Source: a virus. Taken from it: a stretch of DNA of 30,226 nucleotides. The notes under the pieces were generated by a model. That model saw nothing but the letters and a program-made list of their open reading frames with translations. It did not search any database and was not told the origin of the DNA. Positions 4,620 to 28,997 of the stretch are shown piece after piece. Every line of letters starts with the position of its first letter. Positions within the stretch are counted from its first letter, which is position 1. A program made the position numbers and the translations under genes. The stretch spans positions 1 to 30,226 of IMG/VR virus record IMGVR_UViG_3300008262_000219, one strand, 5' to 3'.

Positions 4620-4655
4620 TGGACATTTTAATATTTATTTATTATTTATAGAGTA
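4620..4655 (+). promoter_or_regulatory. structural-class promoter, site 1 (portal)
   Basis: The -35-like TGGACA (4620-4625) is 17 nt before TATTTA (4643-4648), which sits inside the conserved TTTATTATTTATA (4638-4650). Six nt after TATTTA comes the ATG of the portal gene, so the predicted transcript starts on the start codon and needs no Shine-Dalgarno site. None is visible upstream. Confidence 0.75.
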
Positions 4656-6727
4656 TGGCAAAAAAGAAAACCGAGAAACCTAAATATTCGTTTCAAGACC
4701 CTGAAAAATTTGAAAGTTTAATGTACCACTACACCTTTTCCCAAGACGATATGGAGAAAAGAAAACTTAGAAAGAACGGTTGGGACGATATTTTAAAGGC
4801 ATACTTTGGATATTTGCCTGCAAACTGGGCATATATGTCAAAGGTGACAGACCCTGTTATTAGAACTACCATTTTAGAAAAGGTATCTAGAATGTTTGCG
4901 GGAAAACTGCGGGGAACTGTAGTACCAAGAGAAGTAGATGACGCTATAAAATCAAAAATTATTAACGCAAAACTAGACTTTGACTGGGATAGCGCAAATG
5001 AGGGCGGAACTATGATTGAAAAGTGTATCTTAAATGATATACAAGCGAGAATCTTTGGCGCATCTTTTGTTTTATGCTACTGGAACGTGCGAGAGGTCAA
5101 CGGAAAGATTATCCAAGGACCTGATATTAAGGTATTAGATAACAGAGATGTCTTTATTGACTACCAAGCAAACCATATAAAGAGCGCTAACTGGGTTCAA
5201 ACCAGAGAGTGGGTTACATGGCAAGATTTAGAAAATAGAAAAAACACAGACGGCACACCTTTTTACAAAAACTTAGATGTATTAAATGAGAGGATGAGGG
5301 CGGACAAAGACCAAATGCCTAAACCTGAAAGAAGAGATAATAGATATACATCAATTACAAAACAAATCAGATCATTAGAGGATAGAGTTGGACAAGACCT
5401 CTACTACCCAATTATTGAGGTAGTAACCGAGTGGACCAAAGAGGAGATGACAATATTCTCACCAAGACATGGAGTCATTTTATTTGAAGGTCCTAATCCA
5501 CACAACTCAAAAGAAATTCCTATATCAATGCTTAGGTACTATCCAATTGGAGATGACGTATATGGTGAGTCAGAGGTAGAGTCAGTTCTTCCTCTTTACA
5601 GAGCAATTAACGCGGTGTTATGCGGTTACCTTGATATGCAGGCGTTAGCATCTAGACCTCCGATTAAAGTGTCAAACAACTCAACTGGAGTTAGACTAGA
5701 CACCCTTGTATATGGTCCAAACGCACTATGGTTGGTCGGGGATAACCCAAACAATGTGGTAGAGCATCAAACCTCTAACCAGGTTATTGCGTTCTTTAAT
5801 ACTACCTACCCCGCACTTAAGTCTGCGTTCCAGTTAGCGATGGGTGATAACTCGATGGGTATATCAACTATTAACCCATTAGGTAAGGGCGAGAGAACTG
5901 CTACTGAAATTAGGGCATCAACTAAACAACAAATTGCCAGGGATGCTTATAACCAAATATACCTAGAGGAATTCTTAAAAGACGTTATGAACTGGTGGAT
6001 TAAAATGAACCAGCAGTTTCTATTTACCGATCCAAACCAACAAACTTACATAGTAAGAGTCCTTGGTAAGGAAATATTAAATGAGTTAGAAGCATCAGAG
6101 TTAGGTCAAATGGAAATACCAGACGAAATAGTAACTCAAACTGCAGACCTTATTGAGCAGTCACCAAGAGGATTAGATGAAGCAGAGTTAGAGGTAATTA
6201 AAGAAGTATCCCAAATGCCTAAGTACCCTGTACAGGACGACAACGGAAATATTAGACCTAAATTAGACAGAACAAAAGGAGACTCAATAGCACAGTTATT
6301 TATGGAGGAAGATGACCTTCAAGGTTTCTTTGACTACATACCAGATGTTAAGTCTATGCAAATTGGTGTATCTGAAGAGGCAATTAATGGTAGAAACCAA
6401 GCTTTATACATTCTTCTATCCCCAGGAGTTCAACAACAGCTTCAAATGGAGGGTTCTAGTGTAAATGTTAAAGATTTGTTAATATCAGTATTAGAGGATA
6501 ACGGCATACGAAATGCCAGAAAGTTATTTAAAGATGGACAACAACCTACACAAGTACCTACAGGACCTGCAGGAGGACTACCAGGCGGACAACCAGCTGG
6601 ACTCTCCAACGTTGGAGCAGGCGAAATGCCTATGGGATCTCCAGCAGAGCAAGGGTTGGGAGTACCTTCTCAATTACTTGGTACAAATCCCGAAGTATCC
6701 CAATCCAGCGGATTACCGATCATATGA
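4655..6727 (+). CDS. portal protein
   Basis: A 690-residue protein directly after TerL, in the position and size range of podovirus portal (head-tail connector) proteins. The portal forms the dodecameric ring at one capsid vertex through which DNA is pumped and later ejected. Visible features are a lysine-rich start, a mixed alpha/beta body with Trp/Tyr-rich segments, a helical section near residues 400-450 with TATEIRASTKQQIARDAYNQ, and a C-terminal tail from about 630 that is low-complexity and rich in Gly, Pro and Gln. That tail is encoded by DNA that also encodes the next gene in another frame (6513-6727), which may explain its odd composition. Translation is predicted from a leaderless message. 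The family call is by position, length and general resemblance. Confidence 0.85.
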   Translation: MAKKKTEKPKYSFQDPEKFESLMYHYTFSQDDMEKRKLRKNGWDDILKAYFGYLPANWAYMSKVTDPVIRTTILEKVSRMFAGKLRGTVVPREVDDAIKSKIINAKLDFDWDSANEGGTMIEKCILNDIQARIFGASFVLCYWNVREVNGKIIQGPDIKVLDNRDVFIDYQANHIKSANWVQTREWVTWQDLENRKNTDGTPFYKNLDVLNERMRADKDQMPKPERRDNRYTSITKQIRSLEDRVGQDLYYPIIEVVTEWTKEEMTIFSPRHGVILFEGPNPHNSKEIPISMLRYYPIGDDVYGESEVESVLPLYRAINAVLCGYLDMQALASRPPIKVSNNSTGVRLDTLVYGPNALWLVGDNPNNVVEHQTSNQVIAFFNTTYPALKSAFQLAMGDNSMGISTINPLGKGERTATEIRASTKQQIARDAYNQIYLEEFLKDVMNWWIKMNQQFLFTDPNQQTYIVRVLGKEILNELEASELGQMEIPDEIVTQTADLIEQSPRGLDEAELEVIKEVSQMPKYPVQDDNGNIRPKLDRTKGDSIAQLFMEEDDLQGFFDYIPDVKSMQIGVSEEAINGRNQALYILLSPGVQQQLQMEGSSVNVKDLLISVLEDNGIRNARKLFKDGQQPTQVPTGPAGGLPGGQPAGLSNVGAGEMPMGSPAEQGLGVPSQLLGTNPEVSQSSGLPII

Positions 6728-6857: not shown

Positions 6858-7068
6858 CGAACCGAAGGAATTTTACGAGCATACAACTAAAGTCGACCCT
6901 AACATTTGCGACCATACTTTTACTAGACTATCCGCGACAAGAGTATTATGTAAAAGATGCGGACTTGGATTTTTTGATAATCCTCTAGATCCGTTTCCAG
7001 TGGAAGAGATAAACAAACTTATAAAAAAAGAAAAGAAAGAAAAAAGAGTTATTGAAAAAAACGCATAA
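6823..7068 (+). CDS. small zinc-ribbon-like protein
   Basis: Up to 81 residues with C29, H31 and a CKRCGLGF knuckle (C43, C46), a pattern able to hold one zinc ion, followed by an acidic DPFPVEEIN stretch and a Lys/Glu-rich tail. Similar short proteins with an ATRVLCKRCGLGF-like core are common next to portals in environmental phages, but their role is not known to me. The start is either GTG 6823, which has GGAG just upstream but at short spacing, or ATG 6841, the more natural protein start, in which case the upstream overlap with the preceding gene provides coupling. It ends just before the next promoter. Confidence 0.65.
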   Translation: MLNNKKMKPTNNEPKEFYEHTTKVDPNICDHTFTRLSATRVLCKRCGLGFFDNPLDPFPVEEINKLIKKEKKEKRVIEKNA

Positions 7069-7087
7069 CTTTATTATTTATTTAGTA
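7052..7087 (+). promoter_or_regulatory. structural-class promoter, site 2 (internal protein)
   Basis: TTGAAA (7052-7057), 17 nt, then TATTTA (7075-7080) within TTTATTATTTATT (7070-7082), 6 nt, then ATG 7087. It is the same geometry as the portal promoter, again without a Shine-Dalgarno sequence. The -35 box lies in the end of the preceding gene. Confidence 0.78.
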
Positions 7088-8112
7088 TGGCATCATTAAA
7101 AGACTCTTTAAAAGCTGAACAAAAGCAATTAAAAAATAATCAAAAAGAAATTGACAAAGCATATGGTCAGGCACTTGGTATGTACGATACGCAGTTATCT
7201 CAGTTACAAGCGCTTCAACCACAATATGAACAGACAATATCTCAAGGTTATGAGTCCCAAAGACCAATACTTCAACAGCAATTTGAATTAGGGCAAGCAA
7301 ATATCGGCGCTCAAAGAGAGCAAGTCGGTCAACAAAGAGAAACCGCATTGTCTAGTGCCAGAAGGCAGTATGAACAAGGACTTCAAAGGTCTCAACAATT
7401 ATTTGGCGGGGTTGGTGGTTCATCAACAGGTCAGGCAAGTGCTGAGTTACTTGGAGCTGAAACTGCTAGAACTATGGGTCAAGCAAGAATGCAGTCCGCT
7501 CAAAACTTTCAACAGTTAGCGACTGCCGAAAGAGATATCCAAGCACAGTTAACAAACCAATTACAACAGTTAGAGGTTAAAAAGACTCAAGATATTATGA
7601 GAGCAAGAGATGTTTTCAGACAAGAAATTAACCAAATTAATACTGCTAGAGCATCACTTGGGTTAAATAAAGCGCAAGCACAGTTAACCGCATTACAAGA
7701 TTACAACCAAAGAAAAAGAAACTTGGAAGATTACTACATGCAACAACAATCATCGTTAGAGCAATACCAAAGACAACTAAAAGACACTAGAGATACATGG
7801 ATGATGCAAACAAACTATACAAACAGTTTAAATCAGGCAAACAACCCAACCTTTTCAGCAAACCAAACAAACTTTAGGGGTTACGGATATGGAAACGATG
7901 CCTCAAGAGGCGCTGTTATTAATCAGTTAATGGGTACAAGTGCTGGGCAAAGACAGTTACAAAATCTAGGTTATGACATTTACGGTGATTACATCCAAAA
8001 CAGAAATAGTGGAGAAACCTACGATAGATTTGGATTAAGATACAAAGACTGGGGAATTAGAGATCAAAAACAAAAGAATCTAGAGAGAGTTCCAACAGGA
8101 CAAAACGAATAA
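7087..8112 (+). CDS. Gln-rich coiled-coil internal virion (ejection-type) protein
   Basis: A 341-residue protein with a very high Gln and Ala content and long predicted helices (residues 1-100 and 130-240), broken by a Gly/Ser hinge GGVGGSSTGQ near residue 107. The C-terminal 100 residues are less helical and rich in Asn, Tyr and Gly. No membrane segment or catalytic motif is seen. Size, composition and its place between portal and two giant helical proteins resemble the smallest of the three core/ejection proteins of podoviruses (T7 gp14 position), which leave the capsid first during DNA delivery. That function is inference; another possibility is an accessory scaffold. The message is predicted to start on its ATG. 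Confidence 0.65.
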   Translation: MASLKDSLKAEQKQLKNNQKEIDKAYGQALGMYDTQLSQLQALQPQYEQTISQGYESQRPILQQQFELGQANIGAQREQVGQQRETALSSARRQYEQGLQRSQQLFGGVGGSSTGQASAELLGAETARTMGQARMQSAQNFQQLATAERDIQAQLTNQLQQLEVKKTQDIMRARDVFRQEINQINTARASLGLNKAQAQLTALQDYNQRKRNLEDYYMQQQSSLEQYQRQLKDTRDTWMMQTNYTNSLNQANNPTFSANQTNFRGYGYGNDASRGAVINQLMGTSAGQRQLQNLGYDIYGDYIQNRNSGETYDRFGLRYKDWGIRDQKQKNLERVPTGQNE

Positions 8113-8116
8113 AGAA

Positions 8117-8152
8117 TTGATTAAAAGCTCCCGATTTATTATTTATAAAGTA
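8117..8152 (+). promoter_or_regulatory. structural-class promoter, site 3 (metallopeptidase-like protein)
   Basis: TTGATT (8117-8122), 17 nt, TATTTA (8140-8145) within TTTATTATTTATA (8135-8147), 6 nt, ATG 8152. The whole element fits in the 39-nt gap between two genes, so the gap appears to exist only to hold the promoter. Confidence 0.78.
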
Positions 8153-9966
8153 TGGAGTTAGACAACTACAAATCTTCCAAAATAAACGAAGGTCAAAAGG
8201 CAATTGATATTATAAAAACACAAGGCGCGGGGTCTAAACCTATGAACGTGTTTGATCAAATCAGGTCTACATATAACGACTATATGCAAACAGGCATCTC
8301 CATACCTAAGTTTCAGGAAAGCGGTGAAACCGACTACGTACCACGGTTTGCTAACGCTGTAACTACAGGTTTAATAGAGGACACACTTAACTCTCCAAGG
8401 ACTATAAGTCAGGGAATTGATTTAATAAACCAAGGGAAAACCGCAGAGGGTACAGGTAAGTTAATAACAGGTGCTCTAGACCTTCCAATTCCTATTGGTA
8501 AAGGTATTGGACTTGTCGCTAAGGGTATTAAAGGAGCAAAAGCGTTAGGTATGTTAGATAACGTAATCGCAAAAGAAATATTACAAAGCGGTGCATACGG
8601 ATTTGGTAGCGGTCTACAAAACTATGGTCAAAACCCTGAACAGGGTGCTTTAAGCACTGTGGGTGCGGAAACAGCTCTTGGTATAGGTACAGCAGGTTTA
8701 TTTGGAAAAGGCGCGCCTATGGTGGCAGGTCTACTAGGTGACCAATTTGGTAAGGGGTTTAAAAAAGCACAGAAAGAAGGCAAAACATTCATAGACTTAG
8801 ACGGAAGGGAAAAATACGAAATACCTGACTGGGAGTCTGAGGTTAATGTGACAAATAGGTGGTACAAGAAAAACCCTTGGAACAACGAAACAAGAGTCTT
8901 TACCCTAAATGATAATGAGTTAAATAAAAATCTGTTATCAGTTATAGAGGGTAAAGCGAGGATTGGTAATCAGATTTACTTTGACGCTGAGAGTTTCCCA
9001 ACAAGAAAAAAGGTTGATAACTATATAACAGAATTAAAAAAGTTTTCTAGTGAAGAGTTTGCTCGTATCGAGGACTTCCCAAAAGCAAACGAAGCAAAAA
9101 AATATTTTGAAAAATTCCCTAAACTTGGTGACGTAATAACCCACCAAGAATTCTTTAAAGAGTACCCTGATATGAAGGATATTAGAGTAATTTTAAATAA
9201 TGGGGATATAGATAACATGGGTACATATATAGCGGAAGACTTACCAGGAGGACCTTATATATTAATAAACGTGCCTTCATTTATCATGATGAAGGATAAC
9301 GATGCGTTTAGAAACACAGTTTTACATGAAACCCAGCACGCTATCGATATATCTAAAAATTACAACTTTAGATCCCCACAGCTTTCAAAAAAATATTTTA
9401 ACGACAGGTATGAACAAAACCCTGAATTTAAATCTTTAGTAGATGAAACAGTAGCAAAAATTAACCAAATTGGAGAGTTAGAGAATTTAGAAAAACGATA
9501 TAGAAACAAAATGTTAATAACTAGTGATAATAAAGAAGTTTCATCATTGGCGACCGAACAATCTAAAGTGTATGACGAAATTAAAAAATTAAGAGAAGAG
9601 GTAGAGTCCTTACAACCACAATTCAACAGTCTTTTTGCTGACCCTAATAAAGGTTTTAACTTCCCTGTAGATAGCAGGCAGGCATGGTTAAACAATGAAA
9701 GTCGAAACGGGGATGAAGGTTACTCGAAAGACAAATTATTTAGAGCATTAACAGTTGAGCAATATCCATTAGACTTTAGAGGGTATTTAAGCGGTAGAGG
9801 AATGGAGATGTACGGTAGAGAGTTAGTGGAGGCAAACGCTAGAGCTGTAGAGGCAAGATCATTTATGACCCCAAAACAATTAGAAAAAGATCCGTTCACT
9901 GAAACAAGAAAAAGAGGAGCAACTATGCGAATGCCTATATTAAACGAAAGTGATTTAAAATATTAA
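8152..9966 (+). CDS. internal virion protein with HExxH zinc-metallopeptidase-like motif
   Basis: A 604-residue protein. Residues about 100-215 are Gly/Ala-rich and amphipathic to hydrophobic, such as could insert in a membrane. In the C-terminal half VLHETQHAID carries HExxH at 392-396, in the form seen in peptidase-like domains of phage polyvalent proteins, where a downstream acidic residue is the third ligand; the segment ELVEANARAVEAR (557-569) is a good candidate, with E560 or E567. A Glu/Lys coiled coil lies between (about 430-490). It is preceded by its own promoter and followed after 1 nt by the 1491-residue gene. Processing of internal proteins, or attack on a host protein after injection, would fit; neither is shown by the sequence. 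The protein could also be an inactive relative. Confidence 0.68.
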   Translation: MELDNYKSSKINEGQKAIDIIKTQGAGSKPMNVFDQIRSTYNDYMQTGISIPKFQESGETDYVPRFANAVTTGLIEDTLNSPRTISQGIDLINQGKTAEGTGKLITGALDLPIPIGKGIGLVAKGIKGAKALGMLDNVIAKEILQSGAYGFGSGLQNYGQNPEQGALSTVGAETALGIGTAGLFGKGAPMVAGLLGDQFGKGFKKAQKEGKTFIDLDGREKYEIPDWESEVNVTNRWYKKNPWNNETRVFTLNDNELNKNLLSVIEGKARIGNQIYFDAESFPTRKKVDNYITELKKFSSEEFARIEDFPKANEAKKYFEKFPKLGDVITHQEFFKEYPDMKDIRVILNNGDIDNMGTYIAEDLPGGPYILINVPSFIMMKDNDAFRNTVLHETQHAIDISKNYNFRSPQLSKKYFNDRYEQNPEFKSLVDETVAKINQIGELENLEKRYRNKMLITSDNKEVSSLATEQSKVYDEIKKLREEVESLQPQFNSLFADPNKGFNFPVDSRQAWLNNESRNGDEGYSKDKLFRALTVEQYPLDFRGYLSGRGMEMYGRELVEANARAVEARSFMTPKQLEKDPFTETRKRGATMRMPILNESDLKY

Positions 9967-12900: not shown

Positions 12901-14443
12901 CCCACAAGAGTGGTTTTCAATGATTGAAGACTCGCTGGCAAGTCCTCAAAAATTACAAAAGTTTAACTTCTATAAGATGTACCGAAAGCAGTTAGAAAGA
13001 GAGGGTTACTCTCCTGCTGACGCAAATTACATTGCTATATCAAAGACACGAGACGCCTTAACTAACTTTTACAGGTCTGGTGATATAGGTAAGGTGTTAG
13101 ACACAGTATTTGTATATTTTAACGCGGGTATCCAGGGTGCGGTATCCCTTAGAAGATTAGCACTTCAAGACCCAAAGAAGTTTGCCATTGGGTTTACTAC
13201 TACTCTCGCAATCCCTGAGATAGTATCTACCCTATACAACATCTCAACACCAGAAAGAAAAGAAGCGTATGACAAAATTCCTGAGGGTGATAAAGAAAGA
13301 AACTTTATTATTTTACCTGAAACTCCTATATACAACGAAAAGGGAGAACCTTTTTTCTGGGCAGTACCTAAACCATTAGGTTTAAATAATCTTATTAACC
13401 CTGTCAGAAAATTCACACTTGGGTCTTATAACTATGACGCAAAAACAGCAATGGATATATTTAACGAGTTAACAGGGGCGTTTACAGGTTTCAAAGCGCC
13501 ATCTCAAGACGGAGGTGTAAACCCGTTAGCATCTCAAACTGTTCCGTGGTTAACAAGAGGTTTAGTAGAAACCGCTATAAATAAAAACCTATATACAGGA
13601 AGGGAAATTGAGGATGCTGATATGAGAAGGTTACCTGTAAGCGAAAGAGTTGAAACAAACACTTCTTTTACCTCAAGACAAATAGCAAAGGGATTACAAG
13701 ACGCAGGTATTGAGATATCCCCGCTCATGGTAGATAACTTTATAAACTCACAATTTGGTGCTGTCGGAAGGCAAGTACAAAACAAACTAGATACAGGCGC
13801 AGTAGCATTAGGATTAGCACCAGAGGAGCAAATAGGCGGAAAAGAAATTGGGCAGTCTATTAGCGAGGTTATTTATAGGGCAAGGGGCGGTGAAGATATT
13901 AGAAAACTGTCAAAACAACAGCAGTTAGAAGCACAACAGTTAGCATTACAAAAACTACAACTTCAAAGAGCTTTAAGCAGTAATGATATTGCCACAGCAA
14001 ATAATTTAATTCCTAACCTAACAAAGACAGAGTTCAACAACCTGGTAGACAGCATGCAAAAAGACGTTATTAGAGACCAAATGACAAACATGCAAAAATA
14101 CCTATTTAACAGGAGCGAGGCAGAGTTAAAAAAGATAGAGTTGTCAAACCCTGAGTTAGCAAACGATATTAAGTTTGTAAGAGAGGCAAAAGAGGTAGTT
14201 AAAAATACAACATTACCTTCTGTGGATCAATTAGAGTTAAACTTCAGACCTTCAGGAACTGGGGGAGCAAAGATGAGTACTACTGCTAAAAAGATATCTA
14301 TAAAGGGCGGTACAGGTAGAAGAAAAACATCTATTGCTAAAGCAAAAGCACCTAAGTTAAAAGGCGTAAAAGTTAAAAAGAGCAAGTTAGCAAAGATGAA
14401 ACAACCTAAATTTAAACCTATTAAAATTAAAAGAAATGTTTAG
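9968..14443 (+). CDS. giant polyvalent internal virion protein (1491 residues)
   Basis: The largest gene in the window. The protein is mostly helical with long Lys/Glu/Asn-rich stretches and a coiled-coil region at about 730-860. Residues about 885-1050 contain GGNVPFVIADMIRNDW and later FYRSGDIGKVLDTVFVYFNAG, which resemble the large polyvalent-protein-associated domain (LPD38-like) found in phage injected proteins. The last 60 residues are strongly basic (repeated Lys and Arg with SIKGGTGRRKTS, KAPKLKG), suited to contact DNA inside the capsid. By place and size it corresponds to the large ejection proteins of podoviruses (T7 gp15/gp16 role). I see no lytic transglycosylase signature with confidence. 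It starts 1 nt after the previous stop without a clear ribosome binding site, so translation is likely coupled. Confidence 0.72.
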   Translation: MNDKIFEIAKQTAIQLGKRELEKLQQKVTAPFTNYAKDVQTYYRQSVEPYFTEIGKGIERGKKPETQPTPTEWRSPLSQYSERVTRPFIQGTIGIQELTPSATNAIRLSKEQDLQNKLGRTLNEEEKIKLGEEVYGPLYKDRNALASFDVLNQGLVQPVYDRFKLELANIINPGAIGGYDNYKELRQGTVTGKRELTLNDVFGTNEKSNPIVYQVNRFIDFIPELLAPTGGSAIIKGASKAGLLGKGAKEGGEVLAFAGPKISPESLEKIAMNSSDIAKFVDSFKAQGGELTKQAEDFIRNRFRTAEDINKYVNEQSSLKTSIDQNVGDLNKYIDDQVKRSQPAKEGIAQRAGGIVDWYVKNFEDSINPLSKLINQAVKGGLKLTEKNDVLAQIEKVKRSRQIADTFMTENGLTDLIQGIDSWKNYLRFGEYLKAKRFLEEFRNAPEGTDYNKLSGRDLAKDQNIVSQYSEAFEAKSQEFREYFRKLAGVLKESSLISEKQYQGLIEKVDYAPVQRVFEEVENVTAGMKPSALASISKEGVIKRFIGSTRGVVHPVESAIDMTYRIIREAEVNKASRMIVDMVKEGIIPGTVARDADKVLQRIALAGEIKTYVKQINKIVRTITTRKGWARKLQTEVNRLNKKGYDIFAKRTGEPDKYVDELAQARITKLYNSKDRWFEVLLQDIYSDVSPLIDNFAREFFDKNVTPAQKKEFIKNLTKEQLNDLITPLVNMPYGQYKRFYNKVLKKNEKLDELAQELQNLRDGRELNQVVNNLINRDPEELQNIRSLLDKKTPILNKLVDEITTLTDNLQQNKDYVKSLREESRELKDLDTKFEGTISGLKDGIKETVIMDRNVTDAVKGLSVEKLNTLNKILRSSIRVAKFAFTGGNVPFVIADMIRNDWQTVLFSKRGLRDSIVNPLNLFGSLFDMVGKSDIYMDFLREGGGDTIVSAGKIEEQTVKKIMSGKNLLTKTGYIIKNPQEWFSMIEDSLASPQKLQKFNFYKMYRKQLEREGYSPADANYIAISKTRDALTNFYRSGDIGKVLDTVFVYFNAGIQGAVSLRRLALQDPKKFAIGFTTTLAIPEIVSTLYNISTPERKEAYDKIPEGDKERNFIILPETPIYNEKGEPFFWAVPKPLGLNNLINPVRKFTLGSYNYDAKTAMDIFNELTGAFTGFKAPSQDGGVNPLASQTVPWLTRGLVETAINKNLYTGREIEDADMRRLPVSERVETNTSFTSRQIAKGLQDAGIEISPLMVDNFINSQFGAVGRQVQNKLDTGAVALGLAPEEQIGGKEIGQSISEVIYRARGGEDIRKLSKQQQLEAQQLALQKLQLQRALSSNDIATANNLIPNLTKTEFNNLVDSMQKDVIRDQMTNMQKYLFNRSEAELKKIELSNPELANDIKFVREAKEVVKNTTLPSVDQLELNFRPSGTGGAKMSTTAKKISIKGGTGRRKTSIAKAKAPKLKGVKVKKSKLAKMKQPKFKPIKIKRNV

Positions 14444-14811: not shown

Positions 14812-15086
14812 TGGCATACAAGACTCCCGCATGGCAAAGGAAAGCTGGTAAAGACCCTAAAGGCGGTCTTAATAAGAAAGGGATCGCATCTTACAGAAGA
14901 GAAAACCCTGGCAGTAAATTGTCATCCGCAGTCACCACACCCCCATCCAAACTTAAAAAGGGTTCAAAGGCGTATAACCGAAGAAAGTCTTTTTGCGCGA
15001 GGATGGGAGGTATGCCTGGTCCTATGAAAGACGAAAAAGGGAGACCTACTAGAAAAGCTTTATCACTTAGAAAGTGGAACTGTTAA
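14811..15086 (+). CDS. small basic protein C (DUF6321-like)
   Basis: A 91-residue basic protein, MAYKTPAWQRKAGKDPKGGL at the start, with two Cys (C67 near FCARMGGMPGP and the final C91). Relatives with the opening AYKTPAWTRKEGKNPxGGL are frequent in marine and freshwater phages and I recognise the pattern as DUF6321-like. It is linked by TAATG to the gene before it. Its last 24 nt overlap the 3' end of the leftward XRE gene, so the two units converge here. Function unknown; a head or DNA-associated role fits its charge and place. Confidence 0.75.
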   Translation: MAYKTPAWQRKAGKDPKGGLNKKGIASYRRENPGSKLSSAVTTPPSKLKKGSKAYNRRKSFCARMGGMPGPMKDEKGRPTRKALSLRKWNC

Positions 15087-15323
15087 TTTTTTCGGTGTTT
15101 TAAATATATTTTCTTTTAAATCTAAAGCGTAATCGCAAACAAATATAATCTTAAAAAAAATGTCTAAACTAGGGGATACCTGACCCTTTTCATAAGCAGA
15201 TATTGTTTTACCAGAAACCCCTACTTTCAAACCTAACCTTTCCTGACTAAGACCTTTGTCTACTCTAAGTTGTCTAATAAAAGCTGGTACATCAATGAAA
15301 TCAGGCAAAGTGTAATTTAACAT
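15063..15323 (-). CDS. XRE-family helix-turn-helix regulator
   Basis: An 86-residue DNA-binding protein. Residues about 12-65 form a Cro/C1-type HTH (IRQLRVDKGLSQERLGLKVGVSGKTISAYEKG), including the conserved LSQExLG and ISxxExG segments. It consists of little more than the HTH, as in Cro-like repressors or antitoxin-like regulators. It is the only leftward gene in the structural region and is driven by its own perfect extended -10 box. It probably controls neighbouring genes or itself; an inverted-repeat operator is not obvious. It could belong to the inserted patch with the following two genes. No integrase or partner repressor is present to argue for lysogeny. Confidence 0.88.
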   Translation of the reverse strand: MLNYTLPDFIDVPAFIRQLRVDKGLSQERLGLKVGVSGKTISAYEKGQVSPSLDIFFKIIFVCDYALDLKENIFKTPKKLTVPLSK

Positions 15324-15607: not shown

Positions 15608-15868
15608 GTGTCAAGACTCAGTAAAGAGTTCAGGTATAAGATACTTGAGCGGGATAACTTTCGTTGCAGGTTTTGTAATCGGGGTGGTCGGTATTCTGAC
15701 TATATTCTCGAAATACACCACATCGTCTGGAGGCGACACGGTGGATCGGACAATCCTGCTAATTTAATGACCATATGCTCAAGGTGTCATGACATCTTGC
15801 ATTACGGGGTCGAAAGCGGGAGACCTTATACCTTCAGAGAACTCAAAAACAGACAGGGCGGAGTCTGA
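15608..15868 (+). CDS. HNH endonuclease
   Basis: An 86-residue HNH nuclease. A first zinc knuckle CRFC (near residue 20-23) precedes the His-His of IHHIVWRRHGG, the Asn of DNPANLM and a second knuckle CSRCHDILH that supplies the final His. Both the ββα-metal core and the structural zinc site look complete. The start is GTG 15608, placed by AGGAGG 6 nt upstream; the ATG two bases earlier is in the wrong frame. Small free-standing HNH proteins in phages act as homing endonucleases or as helpers of DNA packaging; its place between virion genes, away from terminase, and its Shine-Dalgarno and base usage favour a mobile gene. Confidence 0.88.
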   Translation: MSRLSKEFRYKILERDNFRCRFCNRGGRYSDYILEIHHIVWRRHGGSDNPANLMTICSRCHDILHYGVESGRPYTFRELKNRQGGV

Positions 15869-15893: not shown

Positions 15894-15929
15894 TTGACAA
15901 CAAAATATCTATTTATTACTTATTGATTA
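15894..15929 (+). promoter_or_regulatory. structural-class promoter, site 7 (scaffold-capsid), with leader
   Basis: A perfect TTGACA (15894-15899), 17 nt, TACTTA (15917-15922) within TTTATTACTTATT (15912-15924). The predicted start is the A at 15929, in GATTAG, 57 nt before the scaffold ATG. This is the copy that separates promoter from translation signal: the motif keeps its -35 spacing although no start codon follows it. The perfect -35 box suits the high demand for capsid protein. Confidence 0.75.
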
Positions 15930-15942
15930 GTTTTATAGGGTG

Positions 15943-15967
15943 ATGCTCGCCCACATAAATAGAGCAT
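15943..15967 (+). promoter_or_regulatory. 5' leader stem-loop of the scaffold-capsid message
   Basis: ATGCTC (15943-15948) pairs with GAGCAT (15962-15967), 14 nt from the predicted 5' end and just before the AAGG ribosome binding site at 15971. A 5' hairpin in this place may stabilise the message. The same bases form an 8-codon open frame, ATG at 15943 to TAG at 15967-15969. Both readings are tentative. Confidence 0.4.
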
Positions 15968-15985
15968 AGAAAGGTAAAACTAAAA

Positions 15986-16780
15986 ATGGATGATTTAAAT
16001 CCAAATTTAAATGGCACACAACAAAGTGGTGAGTTAGAAACCATGTCAGAATTGCCAACTGAAGAAATGTCTAACATAGGTTCAGAGGAGGACTTTTCAC
16101 TGCCAGAAAACTCTAACGATAGAACCAAGGAACAATTTTCTAAATTGCTTCAAAGCAATAAAGAGTTGAACCAAAGTAATAAAGAGCTGATGGATAAACT
16201 TCAGCAATTAGAAAGTCTTAAGCAAACTGAAAAGAACGCTTACTCTTCAGTTTATGAAACTTTCAAGAGCGACCCTTTCTCAGCGGTCACAACTCAAGAC
16301 TATGAGTATGTGGACGAAAACGGAGAGGTTGATATCGAGAGGTTAAATAAAGACCTCAAAGAATTAAAGATGTCGACTCTTGAGGCAAAGCGCCTTGCAG
16401 AACAAGCAAGAGAGGAAGTTGAAATCAGGGAGGCACATATGAAGCACCCTTATCTAGACCCTCAAAACCCGAACTTTGACTCCCAGTTCTTTGAACTGGT
16501 TAAAGACAGAGTTCTAAGGCAAAAGTTTTATGAGAAGAAGAATATTCCTCTCGTAGCAGTTGCTGACCAAGTATTTAATTTCTATAAACCGAACGCTAAA
16601 CCAGTCGGTAAAACTGTAGAGGAACAAAAGAAAGTTCAACAACAGGTCACTCAAAATGCTCCTATTTCTTCGAGTACTGGTCGAAGACAAGACGGACCAA
16701 ATATTGAAGATCTAAAAACTCGAACTCTCAAAGGCGACTCTAGAGCAATACAAGAAAGACTGAAAGCACTCGGTATATAG
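15986..16780 (+). CDS. capsid scaffolding protein
   Basis: A 264-residue, acidic and highly charged protein immediately before the major capsid gene. The N-terminal 45 residues are disordered and acidic, a coiled coil with SNKEL repeats spans about 50-90, a second helical stretch about 115-155, and the C-terminus is Gln-rich and ends in a basic helical segment (SRAIQERLKALGI), where scaffold proteins usually bind capsid protein. There is no protease motif. Length, composition and position all match podovirus scaffolds, which fill the prohead and leave before DNA enters. The AAGG site is 11 nt before the ATG, a slightly long distance. Confidence 0.85.
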   Translation: MDDLNPNLNGTQQSGELETMSELPTEEMSNIGSEEDFSLPENSNDRTKEQFSKLLQSNKELNQSNKELMDKLQQLESLKQTEKNAYSSVYETFKSDPFSAVTTQDYEYVDENGEVDIERLNKDLKELKMSTLEAKRLAEQAREEVEIREAHMKHPYLDPQNPNFDSQFFELVKDRVLRQKFYEKKNIPLVAVADQVFNFYKPNAKPVGKTVEEQKKVQQQVTQNAPISSSTGRRQDGPNIEDLKTRTLKGDSRAIQERLKALGI

Positions 16781-16806
16781 TGCCAAAAGAAAAGAGGTGA
16801 ATTAAC

Positions 16807-17697
16807 ATGGCAATTGGATTAGGAACATACCAAGACGCATCAAGAAGAGAAGACTTATTGTCTATCTTAAGAGATGTATCTCCATTAGGAGGAAACTACC
16901 TTATGGGAAACCTTGGAACTTCCGTAGCAAGAAACACACTACACGAGTGGGTAACTTACTACCAATCAAGACCTACTTCAGTAACATTTACACCAGAAGG
17001 TGCTGATGCAACTGTAGTAGACTTGACAGCTCCTGTTAGAAGTAACAACTTCACATCTATTATTAGAGAAGTTGTACAAGTAACTGGATCTGAAAGAGCA
17101 GTCACCGTAGCAACCAATCAAGATCCTCTAGCGTTCCAAAAGGAAAAAGCTTTGAAGAGAATGAATGCAACTATGGAGTATGCACTTATTAACGGTACTA
17201 AAGCATCTGGTAACTCAGGTGTAGCAAGAGGAATGTTAGGAATGTTAGGTTGTATTACAACTAACGTTTCTTCTATCTCTGGTGTTTCTTTAAGCATGTC
17301 TATCGTAGAGGATGTAATCAACACTTCATGGGACAAAGTTGGTGCTGAATATGTAGCAGATACAATCATCACAACAATGTACTTAAAGAGAAGATTTACA
17401 ACTTTCGGTACTTACGTAACTAACTATGCTTTGAATACAAATACATTCTTTAATAATGTATCAACATTCGAGTCATCAGCTGGTACTGTAAACATCGTTC
17501 CTCACAAGGACATTCCTACAGGAACATTACTAGGTGTAAGAATGGACACATTCAAGATCGCTTTCTTAGAAGGTAGAGAACCTCAATGGGTTGAACTAGC
17601 AAAAACTGGTGACGCCGATAAGGGAATGTACATCACTGAGATGACACTTGAGTCCTTAGCACAACCTGCTTCTGTTAAAGTTACTGACTTATTCTAA
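16807..17697 (+). CDS. major capsid protein, SU10/DUF5309-like
   Basis: A 296-residue protein after the scaffold gene. The opening, GTYQDASRREDLLSILRDVSPLG, and the following NTLHEWVTYYQ resemble the SU10/DUF5309 family of HK97-fold major capsid proteins, where TY...REDL and a Trp-containing helix are typical. A late segment (VNIVPHKDIPTGTLLGV, EPQWVELAKTGD) matches the family's C-terminal A-domain layout. It builds the icosahedral shell. AGAGGTGA 7-14 nt before the ATG is a strong ribosome binding site. A strong terminator follows. No upstream promoter of its own is seen, so it depends on the scaffold promoter. Confidence 0.9.
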   Translation: MAIGLGTYQDASRREDLLSILRDVSPLGGNYLMGNLGTSVARNTLHEWVTYYQSRPTSVTFTPEGADATVVDLTAPVRSNNFTSIIREVVQVTGSERAVTVATNQDPLAFQKEKALKRMNATMEYALINGTKASGNSGVARGMLGMLGCITTNVSSISGVSLSMSIVEDVINTSWDKVGAEYVADTIITTMYLKRRFTTFGTYVTNYALNTNTFFNNVSTFESSAGTVNIVPHKDIPTGTLLGVRMDTFKIAFLEGREPQWVELAKTGDADKGMYITEMTLESLAQPASVKVTDLF

Positions 17698-17721
17698 TAA
17701 GGCTGTGATTTAACAAAGATT

Positions 17722-17748
17722 AAGGCAGGGGTCAAACCCTGCCTTTTT
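17722..17748 (+). terminator. intrinsic terminator after the capsid gene
   Basis: A 9-bp stem AAGGCAGGG (17722-17730) / CCCTGCCTT (17737-17745), six-base loop GTCAAA, and a T run (17744-17748). It is a textbook Rho-independent terminator 25 nt after the capsid stop codon, and the only convincing one in the window. It separates the capsid unit from the glycosyltransferase operon. Confidence 0.92.
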
Positions 17749-17790
17749 CTTTACCCTGCGGTCCTACCGCTCTGAGTGTTCCGTGGGGTG

Positions 17791-17803
17791 TATAATTAAA
17801 ATA
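17791..17803 (+). promoter_or_regulatory. TATAAT promoter of the glycosyltransferase operon, leaderless
   Basis: A perfect TATAAT (17791-17796) is followed by 6 nt and ATG 17803. The -35 position has no match to TTGACA. It lies 43 nt after the capsid terminator, so the operon must start its own transcription here. Confidence 0.68.
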
Positions 17804-21474: not shown

Positions 21475-21800
21475 GCGGTGGTAAGACTAGCAGACGTAAA
21501 GGACATAACTTCGAGAGAGAAATTGTTAACGCTCTTAAAGATGTATTCCCAGACGCAAAGAGGAATCTTGAATATCAAGAAGGTCAGGGAGTTGACATTG
21601 CTAACACAGGGGAATTTTCAATCCAATGCAAGGTGGGTAAGAGCTTTAGAATTGAACCTGCTCTCCATGAAGCATACAAAAAAGACAAAATCGCACTTGC
21701 GATTACGAAAAAGGACAGGCAAGACATTATAGTTTCCATGTATTTTGAAGATTTCAAAAAACTTTTAATTGCTTATCTTAACAATCAAGTTGCTAAATAA
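21471..21800 (+). CDS. PDDEXK-type nuclease, Holliday-junction-resolvase-like
   Basis: A 109-residue basic protein with the core of a small PDDEXK nuclease: RRKGHNFEREIVNAL (acidic E15/E17 on the first helix), GQGVDI (D42) and FSIQCKVG (Q52, K54, in the place of the E-x-K pair). Gln in place of the second acidic residue is known in some members of this superfamily. Archaeal Hjc-like and phage resolvases have this size and order. It would resolve branched DNA before packaging. It starts at GTG 21471 with GGAGG 7 nt upstream and overlaps the preceding stop (GTGA). Its place in a sugar-modification operon is unusual. Confidence 0.72.
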   Translation: MSGGKTSRRKGHNFEREIVNALKDVFPDAKRNLEYQEGQGVDIANTGEFSIQCKVGKSFRIEPALHEAYKKDKIALAITKKDRQDIIVSMYFEDFKKLLIAYLNNQVAK

Positions 21801-21825
21801 CGCCCGATTTAGTATTTATAAATTA
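21790..21825 (+). promoter_or_regulatory. structural-class promoter, site 4 (fibre module)
   Basis: TTGCTA (21790-21795), 17 nt, TATTTA (21813-21818) within TTTAGTATTTATA (21808-21820), 6 nt, ATG 21825. The -35 box is inside the end of the nuclease gene. One base of the core differs from the majority (G for T at position 5). Confidence 0.74.
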
Positions 21826-22205
21826 TGTTAGGCGCAGAAGATGTTAAAAACATTCAAATAAATCAAGCACAACCTCAACCTCAGGAAATAAATACAGACA
21901 CAGAACCTAAGGTTAATTTAGTGTTACCAGATGAAATGAGCAAATACAAAATTGCTGAAATATTTGGATTAGATAAAATGAAAGATTTAGATACCCACTC
22001 TGTTGAGATAAACAGGATCATGGACTATTTAAAAGACGTTAACGCTCAAACTGTGGATGACATTGTTTTCTTTACCAGGTCTCTTGCCTCAAAATTAGGT
22101 AACGTGCCAGGGGAAAACAAAATTAAAACAGTCAGCAGATACCTTTTTCTTTCCAGGGAAAGAGATGAAATAAATAAAAGAATTGAAAGGTTAACCCAGG
22201 CATGA
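21825..22205 (+). CDS. hypothetical structural-module protein, 126 residues
   Basis: An acidic, Gln/Asn-rich N-terminus (residues 1-35) followed by a helical domain (EINRIMDYLKDVNAQTVDDIVFFTRSL, RYLFLSRERDEINKRIERL). I do not recognise a family. It is the first gene of the fibre module, driven by a structural-class promoter, and overlaps the next gene by ATGA, so it is probably a virion protein or a small chaperone for assembly. Confidence 0.7.
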   Translation: MLGAEDVKNIQINQAQPQPQEINTDTEPKVNLVLPDEMSKYKIAEIFGLDKMKDLDTHSVEINRIMDYLKDVNAQTVDDIVFFTRSLASKLGNVPGENKIKTVSRYLFLSRERDEINKRIERLTQA

Positions 22206-25617: not shown

Positions 25618-25653
25618 TTGAAATAACACTCTCAATTTATTATTTATAATGTA
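25618..25653 (+). promoter_or_regulatory. structural-class promoter, site 5 (connector)
   Basis: TTGAAA (25618-25623), 17 nt, TATTTA (25641-25646) within TTTATTATTTATA (25636-25648), 6 nt, ATG 25653. It fills the whole gap after the preceding stop codon. Confidence 0.8.
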
Positions 25654-26318
25654 TGGCAACATCATTCTATAACGTATCAGACATCTTAAAATCCGTGGGC
25701 GCTTTAACTGAAACTGAAGCAATCCTTCCAACTGGAACAGATCTTTCTGTAAGAATTCAATATATTAACGATGCGTTAGGTGAGTGGGCGGATACATATA
25801 CCTGGACTGACCTTAGAAGTACATACAACATTTTAACAAGCGGTGTTACAACCACTCAAATATCTCTACCAACAGATTTTAGAGAACCGCTATCTACTCT
25901 TTACGCATATGACAACGCAGACGGACTCCCAACAGAGTACCCTTTAATTGATGCTAGAGATAGATTTTCAAAATATGGAACAGACAAATACTGCTACTTG
26001 TCAGGAACTTTTAGAAATAAGGTTTTAAATATACCAGTGGGATTAGCAAGTGGAATTTCATGTCAAATAGACTACATGACGTTTCCAACTACAGTTACAA
26101 CAACATCAGATTACGTGCCAGTTTCATCTTCTCAATACATAGTTAAAAGAGTAAGTGCCATGGTATTTCAAGCAAGAGGTGATTCAAGATTTCCGTTATT
26201 ACAAGCAGAGGCACAGAGATTATTATCCAACGCAATCGAGGAACAAAATGTGCCATTTGGTAAGGTCAACAGAATACCTATGAACACTCAAAGTTTCACG
26301 ATTGGAGTTGACGGATAA
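25653..26318 (+). CDS. head-tail connector / tail tubular protein A-like
   Basis: A 221-residue protein, helical at the N-terminus (VSDILKSVGALTE, RIQYINDALGEWADTY) and the C-terminus (YIVKRVSAMVFQAR, FPLLQAEAQRLLSNAIEEQ), with a beta-rich middle that contains SLPTDFREPLSTLYAYD. That pattern, where a helical bundle surrounds an LPxDFxxP strand, is common in the adaptor proteins that sit below the portal in podoviruses (T7 gp11 role). The position just before the larger tube-like protein supports this. It overlaps the next gene by a shared A (TAATG). Confidence 0.72.
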   Translation: MATSFYNVSDILKSVGALTETEAILPTGTDLSVRIQYINDALGEWADTYTWTDLRSTYNILTSGVTTTQISLPTDFREPLSTLYAYDNADGLPTEYPLIDARDRFSKYGTDKYCYLSGTFRNKVLNIPVGLASGISCQIDYMTFPTTVTTTSDYVPVSSSQYIVKRVSAMVFQARGDSRFPLLQAEAQRLLSNAIEEQNVPFGKVNRIPMNTQSFTIGVDG

Positions 26319-28276
26319 TGCCACTATTAAATTCTCGAACCCCAGCATATCAACCTCAACCTAAGTACACCTCAAACTATAACGGTTTCGCGGGTGGTTT
26401 AAATTTGTTTTACACACCAACAGAAATTAAATCTACTGAGTTAGCACAATCAGATAACTGTATGCTTGTTGGTGAAGGGGTTGTGACAGGAAGATGGGGA
26501 TCTAAAACTTACTTTACAGCTTCCACAGGTAATAGAGTTAGGATGCTTTCTAAATATGAAAATTTAAATACCAGCGCTAATGAACTTTTAGTTTTTACAG
26601 ATGACGGTTATTTAAGAAAAAAATCAGGAGTTAGCGCAACTGTAATAGCAGGGGCGTCTTTTGTATCTGGCGCTACTATGAACTCCACTCAAATAGCAAA
26701 TTATCAGTATATCGTATCCTCATCAAATAACTTTATGAGGTACAACGGAACATCACTCCAAACATTTGTTGGTATATCTAGACCTTCATTAACAGCAGTA
26801 ACACTTGCCTCAGGAGTCACAGGTACTGCAACATGGTCTTACAAAATAACAGCTTTTTCTATATTTGGAGAAACACTACCGTCAACTGCCGTTACACTAT
26901 CAAACGTGTCTTTTGATAGAACTCTTTTTACAAGTAACCTAACTTGGGTACAACCCTCAACTGCTAGTGGTTATATAACAGGGTTTGGTATATATGTGGG
27001 ACTCCCAGGCGATGAAACTCTTATCGCTACAGTCGGTCCAGCAAGCACAACATATACTGATACAGGTGTTGAACAGTCAGAGGTGTTTCCCCCAACTACA
27101 GACACAACAGCGGGCGTAAAAGCAAAGTTTATTGAAAGGTTTGAAGATAGACTTGTAATAGCAGGAATTGACGGTGACCCAACAATGGTTATGATTTCAG
27201 GTAAGTACCCTTACCAAGAAAGGTTTAACTGGCAAAACGGCGGTGCGTTTATAAAAATAGCGCCTGACTCTGGAGATGAGATTACAGGACTTAAAGTAAT
27301 AGGTCAAAACTCAACAGGAGCGGGAACATCCCCAGGCATATTGGTATTTATGAAGGAGTCAGTTCACCTTGTCACCTTATCTTTCACAGACCTTGGCGGG
27401 TATATAATAACCTCCCCTGTTACTCAACAAATATCTCCTCAGGGGGCATCTTCTTTTAGAAGTGTAGTTAACGTCCAAAACTCTACCTTTTACTTTGGAA
27501 GAACAGGGTTACAGGTTATAGGGTACGAACAAAACTTTTTATCTCAAATAAGAACTAGAGAGGTGAGCGCAAGAATTAGACCTTACGTTCAGGCAGTACT
27601 ACCAGTTGATTTACCAGAGGTTGCGTCAGGTTACCTAGACTATAAATACTTAATGTCATTTCCAAGCACCAAAGACACTATGGTTTACGACTATGAAAGA
27701 GGAGCATTTATTGGACCTTGGAAAACACCGTTTGGTATAACCCAGTGGTTAGAGTACATTGATGATAATGGCGATATATTTTACTTAGCAGGGTGTGATG
27801 ACGGCGTTGTTAGGGAGTTTTCAGCTGACTATAAATCCGACTCGGGTCAGGCAATTGTAAAAACTGTTAAAACAAAAAAAGACGACTTTGGTAACTGGTC
27901 GGTTTTAAAGACATTAGAGTTAGTAAACATGCTGTTTAGAAACGTATCAGGTACTTTATCTGTAAATATTATTTACGAAAAGAGAGACGGCACTTTTTCT
28001 AATATAGCAAAATCATTTGAATTACAAGGAGACACAGGCGGTACAGGTTGGGGTACAGACTTATGGGGTTCGCATAACTGGGGTCAGTCAAATACAAATG
28101 TTACAACACCACAACCTCAAGATACTATAAGGTGGGGATCTATTTACAAAACTGGAAGGACTATCCAAATAGAAATAATCCAAAATGGAACTGAGATTAA
28201 CTTCGAGTTAGCAGATATGAAACTATCAGCAACTTTACAACCAGAGGGAAGTTTATCTTCTTCTTTACGTATTTGA
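26318..28276 (+). CDS. tail tubular protein B-like / tail stabilisation protein
   Basis: A 652-residue, beta-rich protein. The opening (YNGFAGGLNLFYTPTEIKSTELAQSDNCMLVGEGVVTGRWG) is typical of podovirus nozzle-type proteins, where GGLN....P..I...EL..a.N......G....R.G leads into a beta-propeller-like body. It has further blades with repeated short strands (IVSSSNNFMRYNGTSLQTF, YFGRTGLQVIGY) and a fibronectin-like section at about 155-255 (ATWSYKITAFSIFGETLPS). By resemblance and position it corresponds to T7 gp12 or P22 gp10. No enzymatic motif is seen. Confidence 0.78.
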   Translation: MPLLNSRTPAYQPQPKYTSNYNGFAGGLNLFYTPTEIKSTELAQSDNCMLVGEGVVTGRWGSKTYFTASTGNRVRMLSKYENLNTSANELLVFTDDGYLRKKSGVSATVIAGASFVSGATMNSTQIANYQYIVSSSNNFMRYNGTSLQTFVGISRPSLTAVTLASGVTGTATWSYKITAFSIFGETLPSTAVTLSNVSFDRTLFTSNLTWVQPSTASGYITGFGIYVGLPGDETLIATVGPASTTYTDTGVEQSEVFPPTTDTTAGVKAKFIERFEDRLVIAGIDGDPTMVMISGKYPYQERFNWQNGGAFIKIAPDSGDEITGLKVIGQNSTGAGTSPGILVFMKESVHLVTLSFTDLGGYIITSPVTQQISPQGASSFRSVVNVQNSTFYFGRTGLQVIGYEQNFLSQIRTREVSARIRPYVQAVLPVDLPEVASGYLDYKYLMSFPSTKDTMVYDYERGAFIGPWKTPFGITQWLEYIDDNGDIFYLAGCDDGVVREFSADYKSDSGQAIVKTVKTKKDDFGNWSVLKTLELVNMLFRNVSGTLSVNIIYEKRDGTFSNIAKSFELQGDTGGTGWGTDLWGSHNWGQSNTNVTTPQPQDTIRWGSIYKTGRTIQIEIIQNGTEINFELADMKLSATLQPEGSLSSSLRI

Positions 28277-28308
28277 TTTTTAATGAAAAGTTTATTATTT
28301 ATAAATTA
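28273..28308 (+). promoter_or_regulatory. structural-class promoter, site 6 (distal tail genes)
   Basis: TTGATT (28273-28278), 17 nt, TATTTA (28296-28301) within TTTATTATTTATA (28291-28303), 6 nt, ATG 28308. The TGA of the -35 box is also the stop codon of the preceding gene. Confidence 0.8.
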
Positions 28309-28997
28309 TGGCAAATCTATATAACGTTCCACTTAAAAACGCTGTTCAAAAAATATTACAAAATACTTTGACTAGTGGTGAGACAGGAACTATTACATTT
28401 ACAACATCAGTTACATCTGACTTACAAGCGTCAGCAGATATACCAGGCATACTGGTAGTCGATAGAATTGACTCTCTTGGAAACCTAACACCAGCTTTAA
28501 CAGAGTATATTTCATTCAGCGGTGTCTCTGGGTCAACTGTTACAGGTCTTACAAGAGGACTTGGCGGTACATCAGCAAGCGGACATTCAATTGGAGCAAT
28601 CGTTGAGTTTGTACCAGACGTTGTCTGGGCAGATGCTATAAACGATGTATTTACAGAGCAACATGACGCTGACGGAAACCATAAGGTTATAGACTGGAAC
28701 ACAGCAACCGATGGGGCGACAGTTACATTTGATCTTACAACTTACAAAAAACACAGAGTTACATTAGGCGGAAACAGAACTCTTGCCTTATCAAACGTTT
28801 CAGCGGGGGACGTATTTATGATCTCACTTATTCAAGACGGGTCAGGCGGAAGAACAGTTACCTGGTGGTCTGGAATTAAATGGTCATACGGAGTCGTTCC
28901 CACCCTTTCAACAACCGCTAACAAAGCAAACGTTTACGGATTTATTCAAATTGGAACTAACTCATATTACGGGTTTACAGTTGGAGATGAATTATGA
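28308..28997 (+). CDS. tail fibre or adhesin-type protein, 229 residues
   Basis: A beta-rich protein. The N-terminal half has STVTGLTRGLGGTSASGHSIGA, a pattern of phage fibre-base proteins that starts new repeats with GLTRG and H.aGa. The C-terminal half (TFDLTTYKKHRVTLGGNRTLALSNVSAGDVF, VTWWSGIKWSYG) resembles a beta-sandwich domain repeated in many environmental phage fibres. It overlaps the following gene by ATGA. It probably forms part of the distal tail tip with the collar-like protein that follows. Confidence 0.72.
   Translation: MANLYNVPLKNAVQKILQNTLTSGETGTITFTTSVTSDLQASADIPGILVVDRIDSLGNLTPALTEYISFSGVSGSTVTGLTRGLGGTSASGHSIGAIVEFVPDVVWADAINDVFTEQHDADGNHKVIDWNTATDGATVTFDLTTYKKHRVTLGGNRTLALSNVSAGDVFMISLIQDGSGGRTVTWWSGIKWSYGVVPTLSTTANKANVYGFIQIGTNSYYGFTVGDEL

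Follow-up and report, generated by a model that had tools for sequence, protein, structure and literature searches.

A predicted, covarying H-type pseudoknot in the scaffold-capsid mRNA leader of uncultured phages with SU10-type capsid proteins

In this study, we concluded from comparative analysis that the leader upstream of the putative scaffold gene in a 30,226-base IMG/VR virus record (the window, meaning the whole stretch of DNA analysed) is a structured RNA and not a plain spacer, with a predicted H-type pseudoknot enclosed by a 5'-terminal helix (P0). About 43 other distinct phages also have the pseudoknot ahead of their scaffold gene, and it probably controls how the capsid parts are made. 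The reading to which we give a probability of about one half is that the leader is a cis-acting translational operator, in its simplest form serving autogenous control by a phage protein. This reading is favoured because the fold lies close to the scaffold start, 12-30 nt upstream of it in most members, and because P0 can fill the interval between the Shine-Dalgarno (SD) site and the AUG.

The scaffold-capsid promoter of the window consists of a -35-like box TTGACA (15894..15899, +) and, starting 12 nt after it, the core TTTATTACTTATT (15912..15924, +), which contains a -10-like TACTTA (15917..15922, +) at a 17-nt spacer from TTGACA. Judged by spacing and conservation, the predicted transcription start is the A at 15929 (+), 7 nt past the -10-like box, and near relatives have AG at the matching position. 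The leader (15929-15985) is thus 57 nt long, with the ATG at 15986, and carries a weak SD-like AAAGG (15970..15974, +) separated from the ATG by 11 nt. Compared with the sigma-70 consensus (TTGACA, 16-18 nt, TATAAT), the -35 box is perfect and TACTTA matches poorly; a generic sigma-70 scan omitted this promoter owing to the poor -10 match, and a phage-specific factor may act there. Other elements lie near the promoter. A small Cro/C1-type helix-turn-helix protein (HTH_3, E 3e-12) is encoded among the late genes on the opposite strand upstream of it (15063-15323, -) and is a possible regulator, and an HNH endonuclease ORF with a GTG start (15608-15868, +, E 2e-12) ends 25 nt before the -35 box. 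An ORF that is HNH-like by eye (1118-1381, -) likewise lies upstream of the scaffold gene in L057, and a tRNA gene of L001 (8996-9068, +; Rfam tRNA, 73.5 bits), close to its scaffold-capsid promoter on the upstream side, could be a clue to the host.

Scanning both strands of the window for the core consensus TTTA[TG]TA[TC]TTAT gave seven copies, all on the + strand (4638, 7070, 8135, 15912, 21808, 25636 and 28291), against a mean of 0.085 expected in first-order random sequence; the extended pattern TTG-N15-core occurs six times and was absent from 200 random sequences. Every copy except that at 15912 has an ORF start 17 nt after the core start. In these six, a -35 box of the TTGAxx type (individually TGGACA, TTGAAA twice, TTGATT twice and TTGCTA), a 17-nt spacer and a -10 box TATTTA put the predicted +1 on the A of the ATG, and we predict a leaderless arrangement for the portal gene (4638..4657, +, ATG 4655), for the SU10-type adaptor gene (25618..25655, +, ATG 25653) and for the genes behind the other bipartite copies at 7052..7089 (ATG 7087), 8117..8154 (ATG 8152), 21790..21827 (ATG 21825) and 28273..28310 (ATG 28308), all on the + strand. 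The adaptor match to SU10 is above threshold and the portal match to SU10 is below it. Bacterial leaderless mRNA promoters have their -10 box 6-7 nt before the ATG, which the six copies resemble with their predicted +1 on the A of the ATG, whereas the 15912 copy differs in its ATG 57 nt past the predicted +1. Of the seven -35 boxes, its TTGACA matches best and is the only perfect one. The earlier note had drawn attention to this copy for its lack of an adjacent start codon, its 57-nt leader with a ribosome binding site and its superior -35 box, and these observations hold, although the SD-like site is weak.

In the window leader, S1 of the predicted pseudoknot pairs GGG (15938..15940) with CCC (15950..15952), with an optional U15941-G15949 pair, and S2 pairs UGCUC (15944..15948) with GAGCA (15962..15966), extended by A15943-U15967; loop 3 is ACAUAAAUA (15953..15961), and all of these lie on the + strand. 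Both stems were assigned by covariation, and the loop is A-rich and G-poor family-wide. An energy model applied to this leader gives a nested fold of P0 and S2 only, because it cannot form S1 as well; S1 in the window therefore rests on covariation and not on the energy model, and 7 of 200 dinucleotide shuffles exceeded the window's best pseudoknot. The 5' strand of P0, AGUUUUAU (15929..15936, +), comprises the first eight bases of the predicted transcript and pairs with GUAAAACU (15974..15981, +) between the SD-like AAAGG and the AUG. With P0, the window fold reaches -14 kcal/mol, and 7 of 200 shuffles were as low.

All relatives are metagenomic contigs. The close relatives, found via the capsid protein, carry TTGACA and the block GGGTGATGCTCnCCC...GAGCA or close variants before the scaffold gene, which had given the impression of a fixed-sequence element, GGTGATGCTC...GAGCA; that candidate was discarded when wider sampling revealed that both stems covary. 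A wider capsid profile yielded 53 loci, retrieved by the capsid protein only and with the leaders examined afterwards; the capsid profile had 7 rows, 3 of them from phages first met via the leader pattern (L057, L060 and L092). The order of elements is S1, 2-3 bases, S2 starting with U, 0-3 bases, S1', an A-rich loop and S2'. S1 has 3-6 bp, loop 1 has 2-3 nt, and S2 has about 5 bp opening with an invariant U-A pair. Loop 3, usually of 6-12 nt and of 5-19 nt in all members but one, is 51% A and 5% G; it is long enough to cross S1, and together with the covariation of S1 and S2 this is what is expected of a two-stem H-type pseudoknot. S1 is GGG/CCC in the window, UGUGG/CCACA in L212, GGGAU/AUCCC in L210, AGACU/AGUCU in L223, ACUCC/GGAGU in L230 and AGCGG/CCGCU in L234. 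S2 is UGCUC/GAGCA in most members, with the variants UGCAC/GUGCA (L208 and L235), UGUCC/GGACA (L243), UGCGC/GCGCA (L248), UGAC/GUCA (L220), UUCUC/GAGAA (L225) and UGCGU/ACGCA (L244). On the capsid tree all carriers fall in a single clade (100/99) that is separate from PaP3, phiM5, Ss1 and a spring-water phage; the S1 and S2 types together need 32 changes on this tree. The capsid profile found no relative among 84,980 species genomes, and the strict pseudoknot pattern had no match in ten reference phage loci.

Among 45 elements parsed by hand, 44 of them distinct, S1 strands came in 32 kinds and S2 strands in 14. Pairing was found in 167 of 170 cells of the first four S1 pairs (165 Watson-Crick) against 48% with the 3' strands re-dealt, and in 210 of 211 cells of S2 against 88%, figures to be read with the bias of hand parsing toward paired solutions in mind. 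Blind shuffle, strict-pattern and covariance-model tests are less biased. In a blind search with 200 dinucleotide shuffles per leader, the best pseudoknot ranked in the top 5% in 29 of 48 leaders (2.4 expected) and exceeded all 200 shuffles in 12. The strict pattern occurs at the leader in 20 of 55 loci, compared with 0.0024 per 150 nt in the remainder of these sequences; it misses the window leader because no more than three S1 pairs are Watson-Crick there. A covariance model from which S1 was left out matched at E <0.5 only in the scaffold-gene leader (795 kb searched). On MAFFT alignments of hand-chosen element segments, the covariation score was 0.80 versus 0.20 for S1, counted on one loop class because MAFFT over differing loop lengths put S1 out of register, and 0.45 versus 0.13 for S2, counted on a separate alignment; none of 500 shuffles reached either score, and the signal was lost when the partner was slid by 1-3 columns.

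This covariation bears directly on the view of the earlier note, that this is an ordinary leader with an SD whose sole role is stronger translation than that of the leaderless messages. The leader, the SD-like site and the best -35 box are indeed all present, but a plain leader is contradicted by stems S1 and S2 that covary in about 44 phages and by a fold that is kept in leaders without an SD, which makes this view hardly tenable. A conserved upstream mini-ORF starting from an AUG inside the element was also considered and rejected, since its frame is not conserved and an AUG is missing from the element in several members (L225 with UUCUC, L228 with UUUGCU, L250 and L251 with UUUGCG, and L252 with GGUGCGC). 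Pattern matches in unrelated viral contigs (most of L012-L033, L040-L067, L070-L172 and L193-L196) and in bacterial contigs (L197-L206) seem to be fortuitous, and such matches lie mostly in higher-GC coding sequence.

The promoter and the leader differ in how far they are conserved. Of the 29 phages in the window's clade, 28 carry TTG[AC] at 41-49 nt before the pseudoknot, compared with a background frequency of 7.7% of windows, whereas in a second clade only 2 of 16 phages have it at this distance and the pseudoknot is kept. TTGACA itself is retained in the nearest ten relatives, and the -10 region reads TATTTC, TATTTA, TATAAA or TATAGA, with TATTTC/TATTTA at 16-17 nt in the near relatives; the 13-nt core is kept only in the nearest relatives, with L209, L211, L213, L221 and L207 among those that have other -10 regions. 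The proposal of the earlier note that the motif is kept for transcription is therefore borne out in part: it stands for the window, where the motif is separable from a start codon, and for the -35 element at its set distance within the clade, and it fails for the core, which comparison of related phages shows to be absent from most of those that keep the leader. Because most relatives lack the core and one clade has the pseudoknot without the promoter, the RNA fold appears to be the deeply conserved feature, and the comparison indicates that the leader is conserved for its own sake. In one subgroup (L219, L222, L232 and L255), a conserved ACCTC comes after the -35 box (TTGATAACCTC), a longer stretch than a -35 element needs.

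P0 is a frequent, not universal, partner of the pseudoknot, and where present it would draw the 5' end of the transcript back to the region of the SD and start codon. A significant helix of this type was found in 16 of 44 leaders against 2.2 expected, for example CUUAACUUG/CAAGUUAAG in L222 and UAUAUCCGA/UUGGAUAUA in L229; in L236 (UCCUCC/GGAGGA) and L241 (UUCACCU/AGGUGAA) it pairs with the SD itself, which lies in the 3' strand. In more than half of the members it falls short of significance, and where it lies with respect to the SD and AUG differs between members. The position of P0 raises the alternative of an mRNA stabiliser that would work without a ligand, P0 burying the 5' end and the pseudoknot blocking 5'-end-dependent or 5'-to-3' decay to give a long life to the most needed late message. 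Such a role agrees with a P0 5' strand that begins at or beside the predicted +1 in the window's group, with the fixed distance of TTG[AC] from the pseudoknot in that clade, and with the scaffold-capsid message being the only one in the window to carry this element. It is at odds with the second clade, whose 16 phages show no promoter at that distance and whose pseudoknot may be internal to a longer message, and with the pairing of P0 to the SD in several members, which a pure stabiliser would not need. We consider the stabiliser unlikely.

The SD sites bear on a further alternative, in which the pseudoknot is a ribosome recruitment or standby element that raises initiation and offsets weak or missing SDs. 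No SD is recognisable in the scaffold leaders of L060, L214, L230 and L231, which keep the pseudoknot, and in the window the SD is both weak and distant from the AUG, as this alternative would have it. The second clade, however, has mostly strong SDs (of the AAGGAGGTGA type) and keeps the pseudoknot nonetheless, so recruitment seems quite improbable. With both situations present in the family, the pseudoknot is not simply an SD substitute. The suggestion of the earlier note that leader type sets protein amounts is likewise weakened, because the leader precedes the scaffold gene and the capsid gene has its own SD (GAGGTG, 16795-16800), and because an SD cannot be recognised in the leaders of several relatives.

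The leader is followed by a putative scaffold protein of 264 aa (15986..16780, +), named from its position before the capsid gene and with no match to a Pfam family and no recognisable RNA-binding domain, and then by an SU10-type major capsid protein (16807..17697, +; PF17236, E 5e-60). An intrinsic-terminator-like hairpin follows the capsid gene (17722..17745, +), and the message probably ends at this predicted site, as a two-gene unit. This arrangement matters for the idea that the leader is an antitermination RNA modifying RNA polymerase in cis, in the manner of the HK022 put RNAs. The inferred place of the leader at the start of a late transcription unit would suit such a role, yet a strong terminator-like hairpin comes right after the capsid gene, the unit is maybe only two genes long, and the conservation tracks the start of the scaffold gene; antitermination is accordingly very improbable in our estimate. 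A stability or antitermination role would yield the same conservation as a translational operator.

Considering the translational operator as the preferred reading, we propose that P0 and the pseudoknot, once folded, would keep the region between SD and AUG helical and impede binding of the 30S subunit. The folding balance would be shifted by the state of the host or by a phage protein, for which the scaffold protein is the simplest candidate, and the shift would let scaffold and capsid be produced when they are needed and in suitable amounts. Promoter copies that lack a leader would be without this layer of control.

Among experimentally known systems, gene 32 comes closest. The leader pseudoknot of T4 gene 32 is bound by gp32 and is a site of translational autoregulation, and a 2010 review regarded gene 32 as perhaps the only viral pseudoknot in translational autoregulation (PMC3014915). 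The gene 32 leaders of T4, T2 and RB69 share with ours an H-type pseudoknot in a phage mRNA leader. They differ in that the gene 32 pseudoknot belongs to a single-strand DNA-binding protein gene and lies 67 nt upstream of the start codon, with an unstructured A+U-rich stretch after it, whereas the scaffold-leader pseudoknot is nearer to the start codon, often has an enclosing helix and precedes a putative scaffold gene that adjoins the capsid gene, has no Pfam match and is not recognised as a protein of the gene 32 type. The operator of rpsO (ribosomal protein S15) is also a translational operator with a pseudoknot (PMC3014915). It belongs to a cellular gene, unlike the leaders described here, which have no Rfam match.

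At the gathering score of Rfam 15, no match was found in the window, L003, L005 and 12 relatives, and L001 gave only the tRNA outside the leader; the best sub-threshold matches in the leader scored 23.2 of 77 and 13.7 of 115 bits. Among small riboswitches, preQ1-I, SAM-II and NAD+-II are compact H-type pseudoknots in leaders near the SD, and the scaffold-leader pseudoknot is likewise compact, H-type and near the SD. It differs from them in reaching no gathering score, in preceding a structural phage gene and in the variation of S1 and much of S2, which leaves few fixed residues for a ligand pocket. In P22, the scaffolding protein exerts autogenous control of scaffold synthesis, and post-transcriptional control of scaffold in a phage scaffold-coat region is the shared element, being only proposed for the leader here; we know of no pseudoknot defined in P22 scaffold control. 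No description of the pseudoknot element was found in the open-access papers searched. H-type pseudoknots and phage leader operators are already known, and the scaffold-leader pseudoknot appears to be a new family of them.

Very few cases of phage mRNA pseudoknots for translational control are known, chiefly T4 gene 32, and here a compact, strongly covarying pseudoknot accompanies the scaffold-capsid unit throughout a clade of uncultured phages with SU10-type capsid proteins, in which the structured leader precedes the scaffold-capsid gene pair. The contrast between leadered and leaderless messages thus hides a structured, probably regulatory RNA. We advance only tentatively the broader idea of an undescribed viral leader RNA family that would respond to scaffold or capsid protein in free form, or to an infected-cell metabolite, and would govern the ratio and timing with which capsids assemble clade-wide, the other late genes being leaderless in phages like this one. 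The pseudoknot permits a cheap and concrete test of whether, through RNA, capsid assembly exerts feedback on the message that encodes its parts, and it could serve as an RNA mark for spotting the clade in metagenomes.

Several minor observations concern the surrounding genes. Between the terminator-like hairpin and the ORF at 17803 of the window lies a second strong hairpin (17750-17795, +), and the whole stretch 17698-17802 has a z-score of -4.5. A 1491-aa protein with an LPD38 domain (E 9e-22) is encoded at 9968-14443 (+). The capsid gene of L060 (7850-8842) is split, with a 227-aa ORF, resembling a homing endonuclease by eye, between the part for residues 2-48 and the remainder, which suggests an intron or intein-like insertion. 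The capsid match starts only at residue 32 in L253, L254, L256 and L258, and L253 and L254 have an ORF of about 170 aa that stops about 215 nt before it; these look like further interruptions of the capsid gene.
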